Of a stretch of 64,000 nucleotides of DNA, positions 10,866 to 37,039 are shown in pieces. The notes under the pieces were generated by a model. The model was not told the DNA's origin. It ran no database searches and saw only the letters and a list, made by a program, of their open reading frames with translations. Made by a program: the position numbers and the translations under genes. Position 1 is the first letter of the stretch; the number at the start of each line of letters is the position of its first letter. The DNA comes from Antrihabitans auranticaus (GTDB taxonomy: Bacteria; Actinomycetota; Actinomycetes; Mycobacteriales; Mycobacteriaceae): positions 186,001-250,000 of the forward strand of contig NZ_JAEMNW010000001.1 in assembly GCF_016481275.1 (NCBI RefSeq), written 5' to 3'.

Positions 10866-11759
10866 GTGGATATCGGTTTCGCACTGCCGGTTTCGGGTAG
10901 CTGGGCAACACCGGACAACGTCAGCGCCGTCGCGCGAAAGGCCGAGGAACTCGGCTACTCCACGCTGTGGACGTTTCAGCGCTTGCTGTATCCCGACGGC
11001 ACGCGGCTCGGACCGACCTATGCCAGCGTTCTCGACCCCGTGACGGTCGTCGGATTTGCCGCGGGCGTCACCGAACGAATCCGGCTCGGGACGGCGATCG
11101 TCAACGTGCCGTTCCAGCCACCCGTCCTACTGGGCAAGCAACTCGCGACGCTCGACGTACTCTCCCGTGGCAGGCTGGACGCCGGCCTCGGGTTGGGTTG
11201 GGCGCGTGAAGAATTCGAAGCAGCGGGTGCGCCGTACGAACGCCGCGGCAAACGAGCAGAGGACTACATCTCGTGCCTACGTGCGCTGTGGGGTCCGGAT
11301 CCCGTCGAATACGCCGGCGAGTTCTATCGCGTGCCGAAGTCGACGGTGCTGCCGAAACCGATCCAGCCCGGCGGTCCACCGTTGTTGCTCGGCGGCGCCG
11401 CGCCCGCAGCGCTCGCCCGGATCGGGCGGCTCGCGGACGGGTGGATCAGCAGCAGCGGCGCCGACCTGACGGCGCTCGCGTCCTCGGTTGCTGCGGTACA
11501 GGAGGCCGCGACGGCCGCCGGACGCTCCCAGCCGTTGCGGTTCGTGTGCCGCGGGGTGCTCCGCGGAGCGCAGCGGTCGGGTCCGTTGACGGGTTCCCTC
11601 GACGAGGTTCGAACCGACCTGGCGGGACTGGCGGCGCAGGGCATGACCGAGACCTTCATCGACCTCAACTTCGACCCTGCCATCGGCAACCCCGAGGGCG
11701 ACGCCGCCGCCTCGATGCGACGGGCACACGAGGTACTCGAGGCGCTCGCGCCGGGGTGA
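10866..11759 (+). CDS. LLM-class F420-dependent oxidoreductase
   Basis: 297 residues with a luciferase-like TIM-barrel fold: N-terminal DIGFALPVSGSW, then VTERIRLGTAIVNVPF, the glycine-rich GRLDAGLGLGWAREEFEA and PPLLLGGAAPAALARIGRLADGW, all typical of actinobacterial F420-dependent LLM proteins. It would transfer hydride between reduced F420 or FMN and an unknown substrate. GTG 10866 has GAAGG upstream. The gene stands alone between divergent and convergent neighbours, giving no pathway clue. Confidence 0.85.
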   Translation: MDIGFALPVSGSWATPDNVSAVARKAEELGYSTLWTFQRLLYPDGTRLGPTYASVLDPVTVVGFAAGVTERIRLGTAIVNVPFQPPVLLGKQLATLDVLSRGRLDAGLGLGWAREEFEAAGAPYERRGKRAEDYISCLRALWGPDPVEYAGEFYRVPKSTVLPKPIQPGGPPLLLGGAAPAALARIGRLADGWISSSGADLTALASSVAAVQEAATAAGRSQPLRFVCRGVLRGAQRSGPLTGSLDEVRTDLAGLAAQGMTETFIDLNFDPAIGNPEGDAAASMRRAHEVLEALAPG

Positions 11760-11776
11760 CACGGCGGGAATCGCGA

Positions 11777-11833
11777 CGAGAAGGTGGTTGCCGTGACGCC
11801 TACTCGGCGGATACTCAGCCCACCGCCCCCTCG
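11777..11833 (+). repeat. Degenerate copy of the mraZ-upstream palindromic repeat
   Basis: Aligned by hand without gaps, 43 of 56 bases match the reverse complement of the type-A repeat at 36147-36202. It starts with the same cgagaaggtggtt and keeps ctcagcc and accgcc. It sits between convergent stops (oxidoreductase and ileS). The hairpin arms are decayed, so it looks like an old copy. Confidence 0.6.
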
Positions 11834-11868
11834 CCGCGACAAAGCCCGGCGGACGGGAGCCTGCGCCC

Positions 11869-14800
11869 TCAGCGCTTGACGATCGAGACCCGCACGCCTT
11901 CGAGGACATCGACGGCGTCGGTGCCCGGCTCGCCCAACTCGATCTGCGTGGCCAGTACTTCGCCCGCGATGAAGTCCAGGTGCGTCTGCGCCCAATCGCG
12001 GTACTGGTCGGGCACGGACAGGACGACACCGATCCGGTCCGAGACGTCGAGGCCCTGTGCCTTGCGCGCATCCTGAAGTTCGCGGATCAGGTCGCGCGCC
12101 CAGCCCTCGGCTTCCAACTCTGCGGTGACAACCGAGTTGAGCACCACCAGGCCCGCGTTGCCGGGCAGAGCAGCCGTCGACTCGGGTTCGGCGGCCACGA
12201 GTCGCTGCGTGTACTCCTCGGGCAGCAACTCGATTCCGGCAGCAGTGACCACGCCGTTCGCATCTTCGGACCAATCCCCGGCCTTGACCGCCTTGATCAC
12301 CGTCTGCACCTCCTTGCCCAGCCTCGGACCTGCGGCGCGTGCGTTGACGACGAGTTCGAATCGGCCGTGGACGTCGACGTCGGTTGTGAGATCGACCTTC
12401 TTGACGTTGACCTCGTCGGCGATGATGTCCTTGAACGGCTCCAGGCGCTCGGCATCGGAGGCTGCCACAGTGACCTCAGGCAGCGGCAACCGCACCCGAA
12501 GATTCTGTGCCTTCCGCAGACTCGAGACCGTCGAGCAGACCACCCGGACCTCGTCCATCGCAGCGACCAACTCGGCGTCGGCGGGCAGCAGACCGGCTGC
12601 CGGCCAGTCAGCCAGATGCACCGAGCGCCCCCCGGTGAGCCCGCGCCAGATCACTTCGCTGATCAACGGCAAAAGCGGTGCAGCCAAACGGCATACGACT
12701 TCGAGGACCGTGTGCAACGTGTCGATCGCATCGCGGTCCTCGTCCCAGAACCGTTGGCGGGACCGGCGCACGTACCAGTTGGTGAGGGCGTCGCAGAACC
12801 AGCGCAACTCGTCGCAGGCACCGGCGATGTCGTACTTCTCCAGCGCCTCGGTCATCGCGTCGCGGGTCGCGGCGAGCTTCGCGAGGACGTACCGATCCAG
12901 CACGTGCGGCGAATCGGTGCGCCACTCCCCCGGCTTCGACGCGTACAACTGCAGGAACGTCCACGCATTCCACAGCGGCCGCAATGCCTGCCCGGCACCC
13001 TCGCGAATTCCGCGCTCGGTGACGACCAGGTTGCCGCCGCGAAGGATCGGCGACGCCATCAGGAACCAGCGCATCGCGTCGGATCCGTCGCGGTCGAAGA
13101 CCTCGTTGACGTTCGGGTAGTTGCCCTTCGACTTGCTCATCTTCAAGCCGTCGTCGCCGAGCACGATGCCGTGCGCCGCAACAGTTTTGAACGCCGGCCG
13201 ATCGAACAGAGCCGTAGCGAGGACGTGCAAGTTGTAGAACCACCCGCGCGTCTGACCGTTGTACTCGACGATGAAGTCGCCCGGGAAGTGACCTTCCGCG
13301 TCGGCGGTACCTTCGAACCACTCCCGATTCTCGAACGGATAGTGCACCTGCGCGTACGGCATGGACCCCGACTCGAACCAGCAGTCGAGCACTTCCGGCA
13401 CACGGCGCATGGTCGACCGACCCGTCGGATCGTCCGGGTTCGGACGCGTCAACTCGTCCACCATCGGCCGGTGCAGGTCGGTCGGGCGCACGCCGAAATC
13501 GCGCTCGAGCTCATCGAGCGAGCCGTAGACGTCGGTCCGCGGGTAGGTTGGATCATCCGACACCCACACTGGAATCGGGCTGCCCCAGTATCGATTTCGC
13601 GAGATGTTCCAGTCCCGGGCACCTTCGAGCCACTTACCGAACTGGCCGTCACGGATGTGCTCGGGTACCCACGTGATCTGCTGGTTCAGCTCGACCATGC
13701 GGTCGCGGAACTGTGTCACAGCGACAAACCACGACGGCACAGCCATATAGATCAAGGGCTGACCGGAACGCCAGCTGTGCGGGTAGGAGTGCTCGATCGT
13801 CTCGTGCCGCAGGATCTTGCCGACGGCCTTGAGGTCCTTGATGATGTTCGGATTCGCGTCGAACACCATCTGACCCTCGTAGGGCGGAACCAGCGACGTG
13901 AACTTGCCACCCGCGTCGAGCGGCTGCACCAGTTCGATGTCGTTCGCCGTGGCGACGTCCATGTCCTCCTCACCGAACGCCGGTGCAAGGTGGACGATGC
14001 CCGTACCGGAGTCGGTCGTGACGTAGTCGGCCCCAAGGACACGATGCGCGTTCGGGTGACCGGCGAAGAAATCGAACGGCGGCGCGTACGCGACACCCAC
14101 CAGGTCCGCGCCGACCAACTCGCCCAGCACCTCGGGTTCGGCGCCCAATTCGCGCGCGTAATGCGCGACGCGCTCCTTGGCGAGCACGTACCGCTTGCCG
14201 TCCGCACCGGCGACCTGAACGTAGGAGATCTCCGGATGCACCGCGATCGCGAGGTTCGACGGCAGCGTCCACGGCGTCGTGGTCCAGATCAGCGCGTTCG
14301 CGCCATCCAGCGGTGATCCGGGCGCGTGCAACGGCATGTCGACCGTGACGGCAGGGTCCTGACGCATCTTGTACGCGTCGTCGAGCTTCGACTCCTGATT
14401 CGACAGGGGCGTTTGTTCGTACCAGCTGTAGGGAAGCACCCGGAAGCCCTGATAGATCAGGCCTTTGTCCCAGAGTTGCTTGAAGGCCCACATGACCGAC
14501 TCCATGAAGTCGATGTCGAGGGTCTTGTAGTCGTTGTCGAAGTCGACCCAGCGCGCCTGCCGCGTGACGTACTCGCGCCACTCGTCGGTGTAGCGCAACA
14601 CCGATTGCTTGCAGAACTCGTTGAACTTCGCGATACCCATGCCGGAGATATCACCGGTCTTGATGCCCAGCTGCTTTTCGGCCTCGAGTTCGGCGGGCAG
14701 ACCGTGCGTATCCCACCCGAAACGCCGCTCGACCTTCTTGCCGCGCATCGTCTGGTAGCGCGGGATCAGGTCCTTGACGTAACCCGTGAGCAAATGTCCG

Positions 14801-15000
14801 TAGTGTGGCAAACCATTGGCGAACGGCGGTCCGTCATAGAAAACGAACTCCGAATCGGCGCTGCGGTTCGCCACGCTCGCCCGAAATGTGCCGTCCGATT
14901 CCCATTCGGCGAGCACCCGCTTCTCGAGCGCGGGGAAATCGACGCCAGGGGAAGTCTTGCCGCCGCCGAGATCGACGCGGGGGTACGAATCTTGTGACAT
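11869..15000 (-). CDS. ileS: Isoleucyl-tRNA synthetase
   Basis: 1043 residues, the long (eukaryote-like) IleRS type. Class I signatures: the HIGH-equivalent [15 protein letters not shown] and the KMSKS loop in [14 protein letters not shown]. The CP1 editing domain spans the middle, and the C-terminus carries the anticodon-binding and long tail domains. It charges tRNA-Ile. ATG 15000 has GAGGAG 6-11 bp upstream. Expression is very likely controlled by the T-box leader immediately upstream, which exposes or hides that ribosome site. It belongs to the wag31-ileS-dinB neighbourhood on the minus strand. Confidence 0.97.
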
Positions 15001-35146: not shown

Positions 35147-35297
35147 CTTGTCCTCCGGGTCCTACCCACTAGCTGTTGGCCGCTGATCCGTGGTGCGAAT
35201 ACCGCGGGGTCCCTGTCCGAATGGCACCTGGCGCTGGGGAAGTGCGTCAGGGTCCGCCTCGGGCAGAGACCTCGCGGTACTCGCCGAGTAACCGGGG

Positions 35298-35769: not shown

Positions 35770-35800
35770 ACCACATTACCCCACTTTCCCCCACTTGCAA
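35770..35800 (-). promoter_or_regulatory. mraZ promoter with three MraZ boxes
   Basis: On the minus strand: a -35-like TTGCAA (35795-35800), 16-bp spacer, and -10 TAATGT (35773-35778). Three direct repeats GTGGG, GTGGG, GTGGT spaced exactly 10 bp (35790-35794, 35780-35784, 35770-35774) fill the spacer and -10. Spaced TGGG direct repeats are the established MraZ recognition pattern, so the layout predicts autorepression of the dcw cluster. Confidence 0.8.
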
Positions 35801-35977: not shown

Positions 35978-36022
35978 GTGGGGGTTGGTGGGGGAATTTC
36001 CGGATCCGTGGGGCCTGGTGGG
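35978..36022 (+). promoter_or_regulatory. Phased GTGGG box array (possible second MraZ site)
   Basis: Four GTGGG pentamers on the plus strand at 35978, 35988, 36008 and 36018: two pairs at 10-bp spacing, offset by 20 bp, leaving one phase position (35998) empty. The spacing equals that of the MraZ operator 200 bp away, in opposite orientation. Binding by MraZ is an inference. Confidence 0.45.
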
Positions 36023-36078
36023 GGGAGATTCCCTGGCGGGGCGGCCCGCCCCCGCCCAAGTGGGGCCGGAAGCCCGCT

Positions 36079-36134
36079 GAGCAGGCGGTTGGCTGAGCAT
36101 CGTCCGAGAAGGCCGCCAGGTAACCACCTTCTCG
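36079..36134. repeat. Palindromic repeat, type A, copy 1
   Basis: 56 bp: gagcaggcggttggctgagc, then atcg and a hairpin with arms cgagaagg (36105-36112) and ccttctcg (36127-36134) around a ggtaacc core. Internal base 36113 region reads ggccgcc where copy 2 has ggacgcc. Confidence 0.85.
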
Positions 36135-36146
36135 CGCCATACCGCC

Positions 36147-36202
36147 GAGCAGGCGGTTGGCTGAGCATCGCCCGAGAAGGACGCCAGGTAACCACCTTCT
36201 CG
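36147..36202. repeat. Palindromic repeat, type A, copy 2
   Basis: 56 bp, almost identical to copy 1, with hairpin arms 36173-36180 and 36195-36202. It is followed by a ~68-bp spacer (36203-36270) that recurs after copy 4. Confidence 0.85.
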
Positions 36203-36270
36203 GCGAGCCAGTTCGTCGAACGGACGTACGCGGCGGCGACTCCCGCCAACCCCACCGCCCACGGCCCGCC

Positions 36271-36325
36271 GAGCAGGCGGTTGGCTGAGCATCGCTCAAG
36301 TAGCCACCACGAAAGCCGCCTGCTC
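36271..36325. repeat. Palindromic repeat, type B, copy 3
   Basis: 55 bp. It shares the first ~24 bases with type A but ends in ccaccacgaaag plus ccgcctgctc, an exact 10-bp reverse complement of its first ten bases gagcaggcgg. It therefore forms one long stem-loop instead of the internal type-A hairpin. Confidence 0.85.
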
Positions 36326-36353
36326 AGCAGACCGAGCCACGGACATCACCGCC

Positions 36354-36409
36354 GAGCAGGCGGTTGGCTGAACATCGCCCGAGAAGGGCGCCAGGTAACC
36401 ACCTTCTCG
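36354..36409. repeat. Palindromic repeat, type A, copy 4
   Basis: 56 bp with hairpin arms 36380-36387 and 36402-36409. Carries a single change (ctgaacatcg for ctgagcatcg) shared with copy 5, showing that copies 4-5 belong together. Confidence 0.85.
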
Positions 36410-36476
36410 GCGAGCCAGTTCGTCGAACGGACGTACGCGGCGGCGACTCCGCCAACCCCACCGCCCACGGCCCGCC

Positions 36477-36531
36477 GACCAGGCGGTTGGCTGAACATCG
36501 TCTAAGAAGCCACCACGAAAGCCGCCTGGTC
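36477..36531. repeat. Palindromic repeat, type B, copy 5
   Basis: 55 bp. Its arms are gaccaggcgg and ccgcctggtc: both arms differ from copy 3 at the same pair of positions, so complementarity is kept. This compensatory change supports selection for, or copying through, the paired structure. Confidence 0.85.
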
Positions 36532-36558
36532 GACGGCCACGCACGCTCAGACACGACA

Positions 36559-36585
36559 AACGGCGCCGCAGAGTGCGGCGCCGTT
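36559..36585 (-). terminator. Hairpin terminator after the DUF3040 gene
   Basis: Perfect 12-bp inverted repeat aacggcgccgca / tgcggcgccgtt with a 3-nt loop, 17 bp past the stop of the DUF3040 gene on the minus strand. Only a short T-rich stretch follows. It would also insulate the repeat array from read-through. Confidence 0.75.
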
Positions 36586-36601: not shown

Positions 36602-37039
36602 CTAGTCCTGTTCGAACCTGCGGCGGAAACGTTCTTCCATACGGGCGGTGAACCCGCCGCTGCCTTTCTTGGGCCCGCGTTGCCGGCCGAGCCCTGAGGG
36701 GCGCGACCCGCTGCTGCTGCCACTACCCGTCGATCCGCTTCCGGACGCGGCTTGGCCCTTCACGGACCCGCCGAGTAGCAGCAGAACGCCGGCACCGAAC
36801 ATCACGAGGAAGCCGACGAGGCTGATGACTGGGAAGTCACCCGGCTTGAACGGCAACGCGACGCCTGCGATCAGCAAAACGAGACCAAGAACGAAGAGTG
36901 CCGCAGCTTGCAGACGGCGTCGACTCGACGCCGCGCGCACGCGACCAGCCTTCACCGTCGAGGCGAACTTGGGATCCTCAGCATAGAGCGCGCTCTCGAT
37001 CTGATCGAGCATGCGCTGCTCGTGCTCGGAGAGTGGCAC
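36602..37039 (-). CDS. DUF3040 domain membrane protein
   Basis: 145 residues. The N-terminal MPLSEHEQRMLDQIESALY with AEDPKFAST is diagnostic of DUF3040; two membrane helices follow (AAALFVLGLVLLIAGVALPF and VISLVGFLVMFGAGVLLLLGG). The tail is rich in Gly/Ser then Arg/Lys. The family is nearly always upstream of mraZ in mycolata and has no known function; linkage hints at an envelope or division role. Confidence 0.9.
   Translation of the reverse strand: MPLSEHEQRMLDQIESALYAEDPKFASTVKAGRVRAASSRRRLQAAALFVLGLVLLIAGVALPFKPGDFPVISLVGFLVMFGAGVLLLLGGSVKGQAASGSGSTGSGSSSGSRPSGLGRQRGPKKGSGGFTARMEERFRRRFEQD

Follow-up and report, generated by a model that had tools for sequence, protein, structure and literature searches.

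An array of five palindromic units of ~57 nt lies within positions 36079-36532 of a 64,000-nt stretch of the Antrihabitans auranticaus genome (the window, meaning that whole stretch), with all units in a single orientation. We observed that the units belong to a palindrome family dispersed over this genome and its relatives, and that such palindromes flank a gene encoding a protein of ~285 aa, with an AbiEi-like N-terminal part and a C-terminal Vsr/DUF559 nuclease domain. We hold it fairly probable that the array is made up of non-autonomous members of a mobile palindrome/EDxHD-endonuclease system, in which the gene resides between two copies of its own ~57-bp palindrome, and the units probably act as landing sites of this system. 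Since such palindromes flank genes for this homing-endonuclease-like enzyme in many related actinobacteria, repeat family and endonuclease together suggest a type of small mobile DNA, inserted at gene ends, that has not been described before.

A genome-wide family of palindromes

The five-unit array was present as the initial annotation had described it. The two type-B units differ at both arms in a paired manner (gagcaggcgg/ccgcctgctc versus gaccaggcgg/ccgcctggtc), and the A-spacer-B block, claimed as a near-exact duplication of 179 bp, recurs with 171 of 180 positions identical (95%). The second block is a local tandem duplication. A model built from these very five units recovered them at E 5e-19 to 2e-16.

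Copies elsewhere in the genome and in relatives, which the annotation had proposed to look for, were found in both. Plain DNA comparison with the own genome yielded 33 matches. The covariance model R1 (29 own-genome units, 16 pairs) gave at least 113 rows at E <= 0.01, 14 of which are the same place on the opposite strand, leaving at least 99 places; the scan scored no more than 150 candidates. Grouping of neighbours within 700 nt gives 44 clusters, 24 of them single and 20 with 2-9 units, and all 20 multi-unit clusters are of uniform orientation. With a second model, R2, made from 54 units of five genomes, we obtained 129, 32, 20 and 27 rows in four Antrihabitans genomes (E <= 0.01, second-strand duplicates counted). 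When 401 genomes of the family were surveyed with R2 under strict filters, scoring no more than 12 candidates per genome, 84 of them, from 16 of 31 genera, had a match at E <= 1e-4. The genome-wide family and its occurrence in relatives support the earlier view of a non-autonomous, recombinogenic-looking element family.

Contigs were seen to end within or close to tandem palindrome arrays (G000, end of C12 and start of C2; G031, ends of C27 and C29), so that short-read assemblies probably understate the copy numbers. A. cavernicola and the window's genome seem to share the position of a palindrome beside the tRNA-Arg (ccg) gene (L062, L070), which would make some solo copies old. A link to tRNA genes was considered and rejected: with ARAGORN, 5 of 33 own-genome loci and 1 of 20 scanned loci of relatives contained a tRNA, which we took as a common use of intergenic space.

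An endonuclease gene lies between cognate palindromes

Among 13 repeat pairs spaced 966-1018 bp apart, 12 flank homologous proteins of about 275-290 aa. We took as endonuclease loci the best 80 of 495 relatives in a search of the genome contigs, and compared the two flanks of the gene in the 75 loci with full flanks (five with short flanks were dropped). Both flanks shared a repeat in 58 of the 75 (local score at least 20; median 33), compared with 4 of 142 control genes taken from these loci (median 14). Cross-locus and shifted flank controls had means of 14.5 and 14.8 and maxima of 35 and 27, respectively. The R2 palindrome stood on both sides of the endonuclease in 25 of the 80 loci and on one side in 15, most clades having a stem sequence of their own.

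The own genome carries three close copies of the endonuclease (Table 1) and six weaker relatives. The window units scored highest with the 8-unit array beside the C12 copy, reaching 24-35 with unit 3447, while the C21 copy's palindromes gave low scores of 6-10. The window array is of the stem type that adjoins the own-genome endonuclease at C12:662998.

Four distant DUF559 relatives (L256, L257, L258 and L259, in the own genome) have flank repeats that are inverted and of other sequence, with scores of 24-48; the link to palindromes may extend to a wider family. DUF222/HNH genes, at one point considered as the genes between the repeat pairs, proved to be wrong. Mobile carriers of the endonuclease were also sought, and only weak matches were obtained: one in viral contigs (51 residues, 32% identity), 2 records in phages and 8 in plasmids, all of the latter two below 36% identity.

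The palindrome follows the endonuclease and not the host genome

Palindrome likeness rose with protein identity over 76 endonucleases (Mantel r 0.646, a value that none of 2000 permutations reached). Nine of 85 endonucleases with weak palindromes, the own C12 copy among them, were dropped from this test. The mean likeness was 0.19 for endonucleases of the same genome, 0.46 for nearest protein relatives elsewhere and 0.16 for all pairs. The Mantel correlation is partly due to common descent of orthologous loci, and the within-genome contrast is the stronger point. The palindrome sequence tracks the endonuclease, not the host genome.

An independent family was also seen. In Nocardia, an endonuclease is flanked by a palindrome of different sequence, for which five genomes of that genus gave 69, 79, 53, 46 and 5 match rows (both strands counted). 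Another palindrome gave 13 and 9 rows in two Mycolicibacterium genomes and none in two further genomes.

Domains and predicted fold of the endonuclease

We aligned 79 named members of the protein family, leaving out L152 for an internal stop, L096 for a stop codon and L098 because it ends out of frame. All 79 matched DUF559 and MTES_1575 at E <= 0.01 and 18 matched AbiEi_1. NCBIfam named none of three endonucleases at E <= 1e-5, and in three proteins examined individually the Pfam MTES_1575 match was below its own cut-off.

The structure predicted for the A. stalagmiti protein has a mean pLDDT (predicted local distance difference test) of 93. In this model, the C-terminal domain is closest to the catalytic domain of I-Bth0305I (Z 13.1 over 96 residues, root-mean-square deviation (rmsd) 2.4), followed by the DUF559 protein 3hrl (Z 12.0) and Vsr (Z 10.6); Foldseek alone matched the I-Bth0305I-type fold at E 6.9e-3. 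The N-terminal ~177 residues are closest to the AbiEi antitoxin 6y8q (Z 10.3, rmsd 6.0). Conservation of the acidic and histidine residues that an active site of this type should contain is high, at 77 to 79 of the 79 members; E185, D218 and H235 occur in 78, and E229 and D245 in all 79. The conserved E-D-H-D residues stand in the same order as in EDxHD enzymes, and their equivalence with those of I-Bth0305I is by order only. From this conservation, the E/D/H residues are presumed to be catalytic. On the predicted structure, the enzyme would have a homing-endonuclease fold; homing itself is putative.

In a sequence search of the PDB, positions ~123-190 of endonuclease profile A6 matched transcription activator-like (TAL) effector chains (best E 2e-17, summed over many repeats). 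Only 1 of the 79 members matches the Pfam TAL effector family (E 0.0011), and the likeness may reflect a shared helical hairpin only.

A long outer stem kept by paired substitutions

The initial annotation had treated types A and B as alternative structures, with pairing ends in type B. We observed that the ends of type A pair as well: in units 2, 3, 4 and 5, which include both types, 12 of the 14 outer pairs are Watson-Crick, and the shortened unit 1, read ungapped, has 4 of 14. The two types are thus versions of a single long outer stem with differing centres.

The proposal that pairing is kept by compensatory changes was borne out across five genomes. For a 20-pair outer stem, 139 cells had changed on both sides, whereas shuffles gave 52.7 and none of 500 was as high; 80.5% of cells were paired compared with 70.7%. 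Within the own genome (29 units, 16 pairs), the paired fraction was 78.7% against 77.9%, with 131 of 500 shuffles as high; the single paired change seen in the window is therefore insufficient alone to show constraint. A common inner hairpin, tested in two registers, was unsupported; inner hairpins vary between units, and RNAalifold retained only 4 outer pairs on repeat alignment A4.

On inspection of the 54-unit consensus, which ends CCGAG...CTCGGC, no T-run was conserved behind the stem, as an intrinsic terminator would have, and no GTAG or CGTC tag at the unit end. Rfam gave no credible match to the unit, either in the window or in the 10 loci (of 12 chosen) that the search covered; a mir-341 match at chance level (E 0.48) overlaps one unit in L016. 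The units may nonetheless have a role as structured RNA.

Empty, solo and full states at one locus

A locus between a thiolase gene and its convergent neighbour was found 30 times, and the intergenic stretch was inspected in 20. It holds a simple hairpin only in L245, L246 and L250, one or two palindromes in L238, L240, L241 and L247 (a shortened one in L244), and the complete palindrome-endonuclease-palindrome arrangement in L221, L223, L224, L228, L234 and L243; in L230 a gene remnant is left between the palindromes. L245, L238 and L234 belong to one genus (g39).

Other genes were also seen between two palindromes here. In genome G123 (L264:4541-5862), an L-2-hydroxyglutarate oxidase gene stands exactly at the site of the relatives' endonuclease. 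In R. spelaei (L263:3077-8744), hutU, hutH and two further genes lie between two palindromes beside an endonuclease element. We take the two further genes to be hutI- and hutG-like. These swaps fit cassette exchange, with ordinary recombination between repeats as an alternative source.

At the thiolase locus of G029 (L227), the two genes are separated by a repeated hairpin of another sequence, which may represent a second palindrome family.

Position beside stop codons

Gene borders were taken from a simple, crude gene caller, and clusters without genes on both sides were left out. In the own genome, 23 of 35 clusters had a facing stop codon within 60 nt and 1 of 35 a facing start. The corresponding values in relatives were 22 and 3 of 26. 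Where the two genes stood in tandem, the stop was the nearer end in 15 of 17 cases in the own genome and 11 of 12 in relatives (26 of 29 in total; one-sided binomial probability 8e-6 at even odds). The window array follows the same rule, being 67 nt behind the stop of an SCO2097-family gene.

Proposed mechanism and alternatives

We propose that the endonuclease would bind its own palindrome as a dimer and would cut solo copies, or similar hairpins, behind genes. Repair of the break could then copy in either a palindrome or the palindrome-gene-palindrome unit. Solo copies, which do stand beside stop codons, might persist where they are harmless. Arrays would grow by tandem duplication, of which the 95% identical block in the window is an instance, and other genes caught between two palindromes may be exchangeable as cassettes, as the two cases at the thiolase locus suggest. 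I-Bth0305I is described as dimerising on a target of nearly 60 bp (PMC3943268), to which these palindromes come close in length, and AbiEi antitoxins bind inverted repeats; together these favour, at modest odds, homing-like copying between palindromes over RAYT-like transposition (RAYT, REP-associated tyrosine transposase; REP, repetitive extragenic palindrome). More tentatively, at somewhat less than even odds, the system could represent a new class of mobile DNA in genera of Mycobacteriales such as Rhodococcus, Nocardia, Mycobacterium and Antrihabitans, in which ~57-bp palindromes are dispersed, dimeric recognition and landing sites for cognate EDxHD/Vsr-fold homing endonucleases that drive the copying of DNA flanked by palindromes from site to site behind genes and, along with their own genes, shuffle host genes (L-2-hydroxyglutarate oxidase, the histidine-utilisation operon).

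Several observations weigh against a mobile palindrome/endonuclease system. One of the 13 repeat pairs (L046, 987 bp apart) flanks an SDR-like gene, and the palindrome directly behind the C12 endonuclease is much less like the window units (10-19) than is the array on the opposite side of the gene. Palindromes occur in G123 and G043, which lack a close endonuclease, and G004 gave no R2 match in the family survey in spite of its close endonuclease (E 8.7e-91). Palindrome orientation relative to the neighbouring gene is mixed. Full elements occur at the same place in many species, which points to a gene largely vertically inherited there, like a domesticated gene. Species at orthologous loci are too diverged for a target-site duplication or an exact insertion border to be read. 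Finally, the binding and cutting of palindromes by the endonuclease, and the movement of the elements, are inferred.

The same data could be read as true transposition, the palindrome, perhaps as a single-stranded hairpin, being excised or copied and then inserted, in the way proposed for REP/RAYT systems, by this endonuclease or an unknown enzyme. A covarying stem with a variable centre, copies dispersed in both orientations and an enzyme gene flanked by its palindrome, as REPs stand around RAYT genes (PMC3733652), would all agree with this. We nevertheless consider it unlikely, given that the own genome has no Y1 transposase match and that neither duplication nor border was seen. To our knowledge, the Vsr/EDxHD fold is not known to join DNA, which also counts against transposition. 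The palindromes might instead be elements of the host, either bidirectional terminators or operators of the AbiEi-like protein, spread and homogenised by gene conversion, with the nuclease gene merely lodged among them. Their position beside stop codons, the simple hairpin that empty thiolase sites carry where others carry a palindrome, and the binding of AbiEi antitoxins to inverted repeats in their own promoter (PMC7319586) speak for it. We find this distinctly unlikely: the stem type follows the endonuclease and not the genome, an operator leaves the downstream copy and at least 99 own-genome places unexplained, and the stem lacks a conserved T-run behind it. A local tandem duplication without wider meaning, to which the duplicated A-spacer-B block might point, deserves practically no credence, being refuted by those 99 or more places and by the 84 of 401 family genomes.

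Relation to known systems

The initial annotation had suggested looking for a RAYT gene associated with the repeats. Such a link was not upheld: the own genome, the only target genome searched, gave 0 matches to Y1_Tnp (PF01797), while 5 of 14 control genomes were matched. The likeness to REP/RAYT systems (REPtrons) lies in the many dispersed extragenic palindromes, in a cognate enzyme gene flanked by palindromes, albeit of another enzyme, and in the largely vertical inheritance of that gene. The enzyme here, however, has a Vsr/EDxHD-like nuclease fold and is not a Y1 HUH transposase, and the consensus has no GTAG tag. The palindromes are ~57 bp long compared with 20-40 bp for the REPs, which flank RAYT genes (PMC3733652). 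The words Actinobacteria, Mycobacterium, Rhodococcus and Nocardia are absent from PMC3733652. Having no RAYT in its own genome and no GTAG tag, the system works like a REPtron but is none.

With EDxHD homing endonucleases, the system shares the E-D-H-D residue order, a palindrome length near that of the I-Bth0305I target of close to 60 bp (PMC3943268) and, in the model, I-Bth0305I as the best structural match of the C-terminal domain (Z 13.1). Known members are mostly from phages and group I introns, according to PMC3943268; unlike them, the gene here has on either side a cognate palindrome of which many solo copies exist as well, and its product bears an AbiEi-like N-terminal part. As to AbiEi antitoxins of type IV toxin-antitoxin systems, the N-terminal ~177 residues align with 6y8q and 18 of 79 members match AbiEi_1, but the AbiEi-like part here is fused to a nuclease domain. 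The units also resemble miniature inverted-repeat transposable elements (MITEs) and mycobacterial interspersed repeats, by description and not by sequence, in being short, repeated, intergenic and in part arranged in tandem arrays; unlike for MITEs, a target duplication is not readable for them. No paper linking palindromic repeats to DUF559/Vsr-like nucleases was found among the titles and abstract openings screened.

If the preferred reading is true, small actinobacterial palindromes are served by an enzyme of their own that is not related to the known transposases of REPs, and a large and mostly uncharacterised family, the DUF559/MTES_1575 nucleases with an AbiEi-like part, gains a testable role. 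It would also provide numerous natural pairs of enzyme and site in which the recognition of a long palindrome by a homing-endonuclease-like protein can be studied, and would explain a route of gene gain and swapping at gene ends.

Neighbourhood of the array in the window

Table 1. Palindromic units and neighbouring features of the window, and close endonuclease copies of the own genome (contig:position)
Feature	Position	Strand	Remarks
Palindromic unit 1	36079..36135	+	type A; one base shorter at 3' end
Palindromic unit 2	36147..36203	+	type A; R1 79.6 bits, R2 78.9 bits
Palindromic unit 3	36271..36326	+	type B; R1 77.2 bits, R2 68 bits
Palindromic unit 4	36354..36410	+	type A; R1 79.4 bits, R2 77.7 bits
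Palindromic unit 5	36477..36532	+	type B; R1 76.3 bits, R2 65.6 bits
A-spacer-B block	36147..36326	+	recurs at 36354-36532
Sixth unit, solo palindrome	11770..11838	-	between ends of two convergent genes (10866-11759 +, 11869-15000 -)
SCO2097-family gene	36602..37039	-	stop faces array; NCBIfam NF058603, 148.5 bits (cut-off 110)
Perfect 12-bp GC-rich hairpin	36559..36585	.	between SCO2097-family gene and array; similar hairpin aligned in 2 of 3 congeners
Endonuclease copy	C12:662998		adjoins 8-unit array
Endonuclease copy	C21:160320		
Endonuclease copy	C1:372466		

The initial annotation had pointed out the position of the array beside mraZ. In an alignment with three congeners, the mraZ start region was conserved and the array was missing at the same site, the intergenic stretch being 877 nt here compared with 567, 453 and 453 nt. 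Since the array stands behind the SCO2097-family stop and no repeat is there in the congeners, the mraZ neighbourhood looks incidental. The SCO2097-family gene is a neighbour outside the element, and the hairpin between it and the array is likely its own terminator.

An mraW RNA (RF01746, 67.5 bits) was found at 35187-35288 on the minus strand of the window, between mraZ and the next gene. TGGGG-type boxes ~10 nt apart, which we take to resemble MraZ operators, occur at about 35770-35800 and at 36006-36025 and are kept in the three congeners; the latter box lies about 350 nt upstream of mraZ and points the other way.
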